DNA from: Alphaproteobacteria bacterium
Lineage (GTDB): Bacteria; Pseudomonadota; Alphaproteobacteria; Acetobacterales; Acetobacteraceae
DNA: 36,559 nt
Direction of reading: 5' to 3'
Assembly: GCA_026400815.1 (NCBI GenBank)
Contig: JAPLOI010000086.1
Location: 1-36,559, forward strand
Shown: positions 1,529-3,417 of the stretch, piece after piece
Position numbering within the stretch: position 1 is the first letter of the stretch
Layout: each line of letters opens with the position of its first letter
Notes under the pieces: model-generated
The model's database searches: none
Told to the model about the DNA's origin: nothing
The model's input: only the letters and a program-made list of their open reading frames with translations
Program-made: the position numbers and the translations under genes

Positions 1529-1579
1529 GGGGGGCGGCTCCTTTCGGGCGGTGGGGTGGCGGCGAGAAAGCAAGAAAGA

Positions 1580-1625
1580 AAGTGGCCACAAAGACACAGA
1601 GACACAGAGGAGCAGGGCAAGGGAG
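1580..1625 (+). repeat. Inverted repeat, left arm of the GxxExxY cassette
   Basis: 46 bp from aagtggccaca to caagggag, rich in the period cacagagacacagagg. It matches the reverse complement of 2034-2079 at 43 of 46 positions by hand count; the three differences are all A/G. Weaker similarity (gaaagcaa and related purine runs) extends outward on both arms. It lies 27 bp beyond the stop codon of the enclosed gene. Confidence 0.9.
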
Positions 1626-1652
1626 GACGGGCGGGGTGGGGCGACGGTTCGG

Positions 1653-2030
1653 CTAAAGGGTCAGGCGCTTGATGCCGTCCTTCAGGACGGCGTGGTTGAA
1701 GTTCAGCAGCAGGCCGATATGCAGGCCGCTTAGGCGCAGATAGGTCAGCAGTTGGGCCTCGTGGACCAGGGTGGTTCGGTCGATGGCCTTGATCTCGAGG
1801 ATGAGACGCCATTCGACCAAGACGTCGAGGCGATAGGCTCCGGCAACGTTGATTCCCTTGTAGGTAACCGGCAAAGCCACCTGTCGCTCATGGGCAATGC
1901 CCCTGAGCGACATCTCGTGGCACAGGCAATCCTCGTAGGCACCTTCCAGCAAGCCGGGGCCGAGGTGGCGGTGCACTTCGATCGCGCAGCCGATGACGTG
2001 CCGTGAGATGTCGTTGTCCTCGTCGGTCAC
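1653..2030 (-). CDS. GxxExxY family protein (PD-(D/E)XK nuclease-like fold)
   Basis: A 125-residue protein with the name-giving motif G26-LL-E29-GA-Y32 and, later, RLDVLVE with D69 and LILEIKA with E79-I-K81, the D...ExK signature of PD-(D/E)XK proteins. The length fits the family. The biochemical role of GxxExxY proteins is not established to my knowledge. The GTG at 2030 is chosen because it gives the family N-terminus (SRHVIGCAIEVHRHLGPG) and because the caagggag end of the flanking repeat (2034-2041) supplies a Shine-Dalgarno-like sequence only a few bases away; the frame is open further upstream but runs through the repeat. The gene sits alone between the two repeat arms, directly after the aminotransferase stop, as a self-contained cassette. 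Confidence 0.85.
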   Translation of the reverse strand: MTDEDNDISRHVIGCAIEVHRHLGPGLLEGAYEDCLCHEMSLRGIAHERQVALPVTYKGINVAGAYRLDVLVEWRLILEIKAIDRTTLVHEAQLLTYLRLSGLHIGLLLNFNHAVLKDGIKRLTL

Positions 2031-2033
2031 CGT

Positions 2034-2079
2034 CTCCCTTGCCTTGCTCCTCTGTGTCTTTGTGTCTCTGTGGCCACTT
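2034..2079 (-). repeat. Inverted repeat, right arm of the GxxExxY cassette
   Basis: Reverse complement of the 1580-1625 arm with three mismatches. Read with the gene, its inner end is caagggag immediately before the GTG start at 2030, so the repeat appears to contribute the ribosome-binding sequence. Its outer flank (2080-2095) is a purine-rich run (gaggaagaaagc on the minus strand) ending just short of the aminotransferase stop at 2101. Confidence 0.9.
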
Positions 2080-2100
2080 GCTTTCTTCCTCTTCGCGCAC

Positions 2101-3417
2101 TTACGCCGTGATGTCTTTGAGGGCGCGGCCGACGGCTTCGATGGTTTGGTCGACGATGGCCTCATCGTGTTCGGTGCTGAGGAACCAGGCGCCGCGTTCC
2201 AGGGCGCGGACGCCGTGCTTCACCAGGGCGGTGGTGAATTCGACGTAGCGCTTGCGGTCGAAGGATTGCAGGTCGGTCCAGTTTTTCGCCGGTTCCGTCA
2301 TGCCGATGGCGAGGTGGAAGGCGGTGGGGAAGCCGGTGACGACGGCGGGAACGCCGGATGTTTCGAACTGGGCGCGGATGCCGTCCATCAGGCGAGTGCC
2401 GTTCTTGTACAGGCTGTCCCAGGTCTCCGGCTTGCGCAGGCGGTTCAGGGTGGCGACGGTGGCGGCCATGGTGATGGCCTGGCCGTTATAGGTGCCGCCG
2501 TGCATGACGCCGCGGGCGAGTTCATCGAGCAGGCTGGCCTTGCCGGCGATGGCGGCGACGGGGAAGCCGTTGGCGATGGCCTTGGCGAAGGTGGCGAGAT
2601 CCGGCGTGACGCCGAAATGCTGCTGGGCGCCGCCCGGGCCGACGCGGAAGCCGGTGATCACCTCATCGAACACCAGCACGGTGCCGTATTTGGTGCAGGC
2701 TTCGCGCGCGGCTTCCAGGTAGCCGGCCTTGGGGAAGATGCTGCCCTGGTTGCACATGGCGGCTTCCATGATGACCATGGCGACGTCCCCTTGGGCGAGG
2801 CGGGCTTCCAGCGCGGCGGCGTCGTTCCAGGACAGGACGGCGATGTCCACCGCCGCATCCATGATCTGGCCGCGGCTGCCGGCGACCGGGCCGGTGGCGC
2901 CGGGGGGCGGGGTGGTGGACCAGAGTACGTTGTCGAACCAGCCGTGGTAGTGGCCCTCGAACTTCACCACCACGCGGCGGCCGGTGGCGGCGCGGGCGAT
3001 GCGCAGGGCGGCCTGCACGGCTTCGGAACCTGATGAGCAGAAGCGCATCCGCTCGGCGCAGGGGACCATTTCGCACACCAGGCGCGCGGCTTCGGCTTCG
3101 AGGCCGGACTGGCCGCCGTAGAGGATGCCGCGGTCGAGCTGGGCCTTCACGGCGGCGATCACGTCGGCCGGGTTGTGGCCCAGGATCATGGGGCCCATGG
3201 AGAGGTAGTAGTCGATCAGGCGGTTGCCGTCGGCGTCGATCAGGCAGGCGCCTTCGCCGCGTTCCAGCACCAGCGGGGTGGGGGAAATGCCCAGGCGGAA
3301 GTTCGAGGAGACGCCGCCGGCGAGGTATTTGGAGGCCTCGGCGATGCGGCGGCGGGATTCGTCGAAGGTCAGCTCGTGATCGGGCAGGGCGTTGCGACGA
3401 TCGGTGGTGGCGGACAT
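2101..3417 (-). CDS. Class III aminotransferase, glutamate-1-semialdehyde aminomutase-like
   Basis: 438 residues, a fold-type I PLP enzyme. The PLP-binding Lys is K279 in TFAKAIANGFPVA. Other family marks are FCSSGSEAVQAALRIAR, the EGHYHGWFD segment and the cofactor Asp in VLVFDEVITGFR. The overall pattern is closest to glutamate-1-semialdehyde 2,1-aminomutase and its many paralogues. No other haem-biosynthesis gene is nearby, so a role in amine or amino-acid catabolism is as likely as 5-aminolevulinate synthesis. It is transcribed alone, divergently from the molybdenum hydroxylase operon. The GxxExxY cassette abuts its 3' end without disturbing the coding sequence. Confidence 0.9.
   Translation of the reverse strand: MSATTDRRNALPDHELTFDESRRRIAEASKYLAGGVSSNFRLGISPTPLVLERGEGACLIDADGNRLIDYYLSMGPMILGHNPADVIAAVKAQLDRGILYGGQSGLEAEAARLVCEMVPCAERMRFCSSGSEAVQAALRIARAATGRRVVVKFEGHYHGWFDNVLWSTTPPPGATGPVAGSRGQIMDAAVDIAVLSWNDAAALEARLAQGDVAMVIMEAAMCNQGSIFPKAGYLEAAREACTKYGTVLVFDEVITGFRVGPGGAQQHFGVTPDLATFAKAIANGFPVAAIAGKASLLDELARGVMHGGTYNGQAITMAATVATLNRLRKPETWDSLYKNGTRLMDGIRAQFETSGVPAVVTGFPTAFHLAIGMTEPAKNWTDLQSFDRKRYVEFTTALVKHGVRALERGAWFLSTEHDEAIVDQTIEAVGRALKDITA

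Follow-up and report, generated by a model that had tools for sequence, protein, structure and literature searches.

The closest described relatives of the element reported here are the REPIN/RAYT systems (TnpA-REP, 'REPtron'). As characterized in the relevant sections of two papers, a REPIN is a short dispersed unit formed by two inverted repeats, the repeats far outnumber the enzyme genes, and a genome holds several families, each with one enzyme variant (PMC3116915, PMC8266576). The present locus resembles these systems, as far as those sections describe them, in its short dispersed inverted doublets, its several families and its large excess of repeats over enzyme genes. Unlike in REPIN/RAYT, the gene between the arms here encodes a PD-(D/E)XK nuclease rather than an HUH (Y1) transposase; this gene, of the GxxExxY family, lies inside the arms; each arm is a tandem run of modules and pairs with the opposite arm, with no palindrome within a single repeat (four elements folded); as many as 14 gene matches, fragments included, occur in one genome (G022); and the element is also found in archaea.

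Two other comparisons are instructive. As with insertion sequences and their MITEs, terminal inverted repeats of one kind are carried by both gene-bearing and gene-less copies, and the sites are polymorphic among relatives, but here a recognised transposase is lacking from the cassette, target duplications were not seen, and the arm family changes at fixed sites. The protein, for its part, recalls the Cas4, RecB and lambda-exonuclease nucleases and the PD-(D/E)XK homing nuclease I-Bth0305I in its active-site residues and in weak Foldseek matches; unlike them it is free-standing, with 125 residues, has no partner gene in the cassette, and resides within its own repeats. Enzymes of the PD-(D/E)XK class are not known to move DNA on their own, and GxxExxY is a curated family without an assigned function. 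No description of an arm-flanked GxxExxY element, no mention of the arm repeat strings and none of PDDEXK_3 was found in the open-access PMC literature; the passages of open-access PMC papers that mention GxxExxY are not about repeats.

Our main finding is that GxxExxY genes are paired with such arms, and that gene-less copies of the arms exist, in distant bacteria and archaea. This suggests that they belong to a type of small, spreading DNA element that has yet to be described. We consider it somewhat probable that the cassette described below is the gene-bearing form of a two-part, REPIN- or MITE-like element whose dedicated PD-(D/E)XK nuclease acts on its own arms.

The cassette was analyzed in a stretch of 36,559 nucleotides (the window), in which it has the following anatomy:

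1569 to 1625, forward strand: left inverted arm, 57 nt, 91% to 2034-2090; in order, an outer purine-rich tail, GTGGCCAC, three CACRRAG modules (1587-1609) and an inner GAGCAGGGCAAGGGAG
1653 to 2030, reverse strand: GxxExxY / PDDEXK_3 nuclease gene, 125 codons, GTG start, stop codon at 1653-1655
2034 to 2041, reverse strand: CAAGGGAG, innermost letters of the right arm and probable ribosome-binding site, ending 3 nt short of the GTG
2034 to 2090, reverse strand: right inverted arm, with modules at 2050-2072
2101 to 3417, reverse strand: class-III aminotransferase gene (PF00202), a neighbour outside the element, which lies just behind its stop codon

The original prediction, that of a single GxxExxY gene packaged between inverted arms, is supported: it is the only gene in the cassette, and no known transposase lies between the arms. 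The segments then aligned (1580-1625 and 2034-2079) are indeed identical at 43 of 46 positions when compared by eye, the three differences all being A/G, and the inverted repeat extends beyond these 46 bp to 57 nt per arm (1569-1625 and 2034-2090; 91% complementary). Upstream of the GTG at 2028-2030 stand ACG and then CAAGGGAG (2041-2034), the letters that had been read there; they close the right arm on its inner side and are the probable ribosome-binding site of the gene, and a similar inner stretch can be read in many gene-less arm copies. The cassette had also been said to stop cleanly 6 bp from the aminotransferase stop, a distance that was approximate: the aminotransferase ends at 2101, 10 bp past the 57-nt arm. 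Orthologous junctions between aminotransferase and element are seen in congeners. In the congeners compared, conservation at this site does not reach left of about position 1500; that part of the window includes an IstB (IS21) fragment (19-321) and, at 932-1411, a protein matching the phage family phrog_36773.

The window protein scores 140 bits against PF13366 (cut-off 22) and 142 bits against TIGR04256 (cut-off 35). Among 61 sequences, the catalytic residues E29, D69, E79, K81 (ExK) and Q93 are invariant and Y97 is nearly so; they fit a PD-(D/E)XK active site of the RecB/Cas4 type. An AlphaFold (AF2) model of the protein has a pLDDT of 95.8. Foldseek comparison with solved nucleases gave weak matches only, first to SSO0001, a Cas4 protein (E 0.01), and then to lambda exonuclease, MGME1 and I-Bth0305I; a sequence search with the window protein yielded no solved relative at E up to 1. 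Since dN/dS is 0.08-0.27 over 26 GxxExxY pairs, with dS saturated in some, the protein is under purifying selection; for the window gene, the values against the same-site genes of G001 and G007 are 0.10 and 0.14. Two other roles were considered and rejected, namely an anti-phage defence protein (the window protein matched none of the families in PADLOC-DB) and plasmid or phage cargo, since a relative at E 1e-5 is present in just 7 plasmid records among 72,556 and in none of the 50,697 from phages.

Throughout the host genome (G000; 5.1 Mb, 89 contigs), the arms form a dispersed repeat. The cassette had 83 matches in this genome, 80 of them to arms alone, and the genome has three GxxExxY genes. 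A three-module pattern gave 97 matches, against 7 for its reversed control, or 90 arms after merging. Adjacent arms less than 600 bp apart make up 32 pairs, and 28 of these are convergent: two enclose a GxxExxY gene (inner distances of 434 and 439 bp), while the other 26, accounting for 52 arms, are gene-less and separated by 27-214 bp. Under the strict three-module pattern, 34 of the 90 arms have no partner. The view that gene-less copies descend from decayed genes was rejected: when 98 loci, many of which overlap, were searched in six frames with the HMM, no remnant was recovered, and GxxExxY was matched at the window cassette (L314 and L315) and the G004 cassette (L324) alone.

Several arm families co-exist in this genome: F1, CACAGAGGCACAGAG, is that of the window cassette; F2, CACAAAGACACTAAG, surrounds the host C51 gene; F3, CACGGAGGCACGGAGGGCACGGAG, and F4, CGCCAAGGCGCCAAGGACGCCAAG, are found at none of the three host genes, and gene-bearing loci in congeners carry them (L068/L069 and L062/L071); the arms of the C24 gene are of a further type. 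At L035 (G000:C8:161716-161762) the left arm has grown to six CACAGAG modules and the right arm comes from another family. A second dispersed palindrome, of approximate sequence GGCGGAACCGCTTCGCGTTCCGCC, often lies inside or beside gene-less elements (interiors of L012 and L014, flanks of several sites), and a terminator-like repeat, GTTCTTTTTTGGAAAAAAGAACCAAAAAACTTT ... AAGTCTTTTTCTTCAGAAAAAAGAAG, at L225:8050-8195 (G000:C51) has dozens of matches in the genus.

When folded as DNA, each of four gene-less pairs formed one long hairpin (z -6.1 to -13.9) in which the two arms pair together, single arms not being REP-type palindromes. Moreover, at 15 of 20 host sites the stop codon of an open frame of at least 240 nt lies within 60 nt outside the modules, as opposed to 28% (879 of 3138) of random windows of the same loci. 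Strong folding and a position behind stop codons are what would be expected if the arms were regulatory RNA hairpins at operon ends, acting in processing, stability or attenuation, with GxxExxY as a processing enzyme and spread as a secondary matter. We regard this as very improbable: seven loci had no Rfam match, which also led us to reject a known structured RNA, and the elements are polymorphic in presence and, at one site (L304, below), flipped in orientation.

The same pairing of gene and arms recurs far beyond this genus. In a protein-only scan, the query was an alignment of 15 proteins, taken from the window genome and from relatives of it, and each species was represented by a single genome; the named loci are the best 80 of 581. 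For each, 300 bp flanks were examined for an inverted repeat scoring at least 30, and 2 of 81 loci were set aside for having too little flank. Inverted arms flank GxxExxY in 62 of the 79 loci (drawn from the best 80 of 581, plus one on a viral contig), and at least two 7-nt modules (CRCNRAG or CRCNRAT) separated by short spacers are present in both arms of 57 of these 62, the other five having inverted repeats of other kinds or of weaker syntax. A phylum could be named for 60 of the 62: they span 15 phyla and include two archaeal loci (Methanobacteriota), all among the best 80 of 581. In the pooled set, 103 of 134 unique GxxExxY genes have flanking arms, and in a Pseudomonadota sample such arms stand at 21 of 29 genes, some with CRCNRAT modules. 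The impression recorded in the original prediction, that a cacagag-type period accompanies GxxExxY genes in other bacteria, is thus confirmed by both the named loci and the pooled set. Among the 25 genomes reached through named loci, the two-module pattern is present in 21 and occurs at least five times in 19. The pattern is also encountered in coding sequence: at L210 (409-434 and 1501-1515; G281), runs of arm-like modules lie within one 605-codon frame.

The module is short and purine-rich, and a resemblance due to chance or low complexity had to be considered. It was rejected and deserves next to no credence, given that 1 of 275 shifted windows of those loci reached an inverted-repeat score of 30, that the reversed pattern gave 0-3 matches per genome, and that the host has 7 control matches against 97.

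Does arm type follow the host or the protein? On a tree of 78 GxxExxY proteins (phylum assigned for 75; 17 phyla), spacer length changes 12 times, compared to a mean of 18.5 and a minimum of 13 in 300 shuffles, and core type 14 times, compared to a mean of 17.8 and a minimum of 14, reached once. Phylum changes 41 times (shuffles: mean 51.4, minimum 47), so the GxxExxY family crosses phyla freely. Core and spacer are both shared in 63% of 89 pairs of near proteins from different phyla, and the spacer in 92% (52 rows), versus 15% and 47%, respectively, in 89 pairs of far proteins from the same phylum (52 rows); none of 2000 permutations reached 63%. Arm type goes with the protein rather than with the phylum of the host. 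This signal speaks for gene and arms being a unit and not for recognition, because their linked transfer suffices to explain it.

Counts of arms and genes per genome were compared at two scales; at both, the arm patterns miss some families, and a genome that has the gene but arms of another kind is scored as arm-free. Of the 60 nearest genomes (own included), 13 carry a GxxExxY gene: eight of them have at least 8 arm sites, and five (G005, G035, G039, G043, G049) have no site of the pattern used. Sites are present in 4 of the 47 gene-negative genomes, that is, G006 (68% complete, 9 sites), G028 (3), G042 (2) and G044 (1). Among 398 Pseudomonadota genomes (own included), 55 have at least 5 arm sites, and the gene is present in 37 of these 55 versus 28 of the other 343 (Fisher 3e-21). 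Much of this association is driven by one family of 74 genomes (f60), inside which 33 genomes have both, 15 arms only, 12 the gene only and 14 neither (p 0.08, not significant); outside it, the corresponding numbers are 4, 3, 16 and 301 (p 3e-4). Within the family of the host, G022 is peculiar in that several of its 14 GxxExxY matches are partial or have internal stops.

No GxxExxY gene was detected in the remaining 18 of the 55 arm-rich genomes, some of which are nearly complete (G213, G064, G095). Either the gene is not always needed for arms to persist, or genes were missed. Decay of the arms where the gene is missing was considered and does not hold for identity, which is not lower (0.90-0.91 in 12 pairs and 0.84 in six pairs of G213, against 0.89 where the gene is present); the arms do, however, match over a shorter length, 18-27 nt against 40-44 nt. 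According to the original prediction, a functional pairing would be argued against by repeats scattered equally far from any GxxExxY gene, and here the outcome is mixed: arms do lie far from any gene, these 18 genomes are gene-negative and the association inside f60 falls short of significance, while that over all 398 genomes is strong.

Arm-rich genomes with no detected gene (109 sites in G213, 28 in G193, 20 in G281, 19 in G095) also speak for a passenger role, in which GxxExxY would be an unrelated gene captured by chance between two arms, and the arms would owe their movement to a different host enzyme, such as a RAYT, or to slippage during replication. We judge this unlikely, as it sits poorly with a single gene family lying between arms of the same kind across 15 phyla, with the agreement between arm type and the protein tree, and with arms that pair together in the four folded elements instead of each being a REP palindrome. 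In addition, among 40 loci inspected, the only ones with a convergent pair at cassette-like spacing were L193 and L194, which both carry the gene, and L210, whose two arms fall within one long frame. G213 itself has several arm families in a genome of 1.8 Mb (L185, L195-L223 in part).

Comparisons of the same sites among congeners reveal what happens to individual copies. Nineteen sites were examined in nine congeners, not every site in every congener and with occupancy read partly by eye; at 9 of the 19, the arm-type element is missing in an aligned congener, and G003 has no element at any of the 8 sites where it could be aligned. Presence is thus polymorphic, and the empty sites that the prediction proposed to look for in relatives do exist. 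A given site may hold a gene-bearing cassette, a gene-less pair, another arm type or nothing. The window site has the cassette in G000, G001 and G007 (between G000 and G001, the cassette gene is 96% identical and the neighbour 94%); in G002, G004 and G008 the same gap is taken up by a gene-less pair whose outer arm differs. At L034 it is G004 that has a GxxExxY cassette, and G000, G001 and G007 have gene-less pairs. At site 3 (C51), cassettes stand behind one stop codon in G000, G004, G007, G008 and G002, and G003 has no cassette, only 23 nt separating that stop from the next start; the cassettes differ, the gene of G000 being 74% (G007) and 69% (G004) identical to its counterparts between flanks that are 95-97% identical. 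Elsewhere on the same contig, at L225:3779-4729 (G000:C51), G000 has a 0.9-kb insert; in congeners this position is occupied by a gene-less element or a different insert, or is empty.

Arm families also change at fixed sites. At five of them (L037, L029, L024, L034 and site 1), arms are F2 in G000 and F1 in the aligned G001, G004 or G007, which is the same difference as at the C51 cassette of G000. Both arms of L029 appear to have been changed in place, because its interior is homologous; the other four sites may instead reflect independent insertion. The F1/F2 difference is not seen at every site, as F2 arms are common to G000, G001 and G007 at L028, and L035 is mixed in G000, G001 and G004, its two arms coming from different families. 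One gene-less element (L304, G000:C19:41914-41998; L331, G007:C407) is inverted at the same site, the G007 copy being 98.9% identical to the reverse complement and 91.2% in direct orientation. This inversion can be recognised by the two different spacers of the element (GA and TT).

Finally, L310 is absent in G001 and G004, and L306 is absent in G007. No target duplication was seen by eye when these two were compared with their empty sites (flanking anchors 90-95% identical), nor when site 3 was compared with G003, the element ends not being sharply defined. No excision product was seen in the site comparisons.

The change of family around a homologous interior (L029), elements with one arm per family (L035) and the different cassettes of site 3 between conserved flanks are all expected of a homing-type process limited to conversion, whereby the nuclease cuts arms of other families, repair templated by another copy replaces the whole cassette or single arms, and new sites are rare repair accidents. 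Such a process, taken as the whole explanation, is distinctly unlikely in our view, in that it leaves unexplained both the empty and filled sites of close relatives (L310, L306) and the tens of copies per genome in several phyla. The interpretation given in the first reading of this DNA is partly supported. It had foreseen the cassette and the accompanying repeat and had proposed to compare empty with filled sites; it had not foreseen that the arms are mainly a gene-less dispersed repeat (about 90 arms for 3 genes), that several families co-exist, or that the family changes at a fixed site.

These observations can be accommodated by an element in which the nuclease acts on its own arms. Its DNA part is a pair of long inverted arms, each with two and usually at least three 7-nt modules (CRCNRAG/CRCNRAT) and short spacers, able to fold into one hairpin. 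Its protein part is the 125-residue GxxExxY nuclease, with its putative RecB/Cas4-type PD-(D/E)XK site, and most host copies lack the gene. The nuclease would recognise its own arm family, either as a hairpin during replication or as a duplex, and cut there; repair or replication would then copy the arms to new sites, often behind stop codons and with no visible target duplication, and existing arms would be converted to the currently active family. Gene-less copies would rely on the nuclease in trans, the relationship that has been proposed for REPINs and RAYTs. We infer, then, that the nuclease causes both the spread and the rewriting of the arms. It is also possible, if somewhat less likely than not, that this is a separate class of mobile elements of bacteria and archaea that spreads with one small Cas4/RecB-like PD-(D/E)XK nuclease and no transposase: the nuclease would read modular hairpin arms, drift in its specificity would lead to the rewriting of a genome's arms, and arm families and nuclease subfamilies would co-evolve and replace each other at fixed sites.

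Our results provide the GxxExxY family with a concrete candidate substrate to test, and offer an explanation for a repeat that has tens of copies in many environmental genomes. The natural same-site comparisons make it possible to study joint change in a population of repeats and in its enzyme. If the proposed relationship between nuclease and arms is true, the element would represent the REPIN/RAYT arrangement arrived at a second time and independently, across bacteria and archaea.
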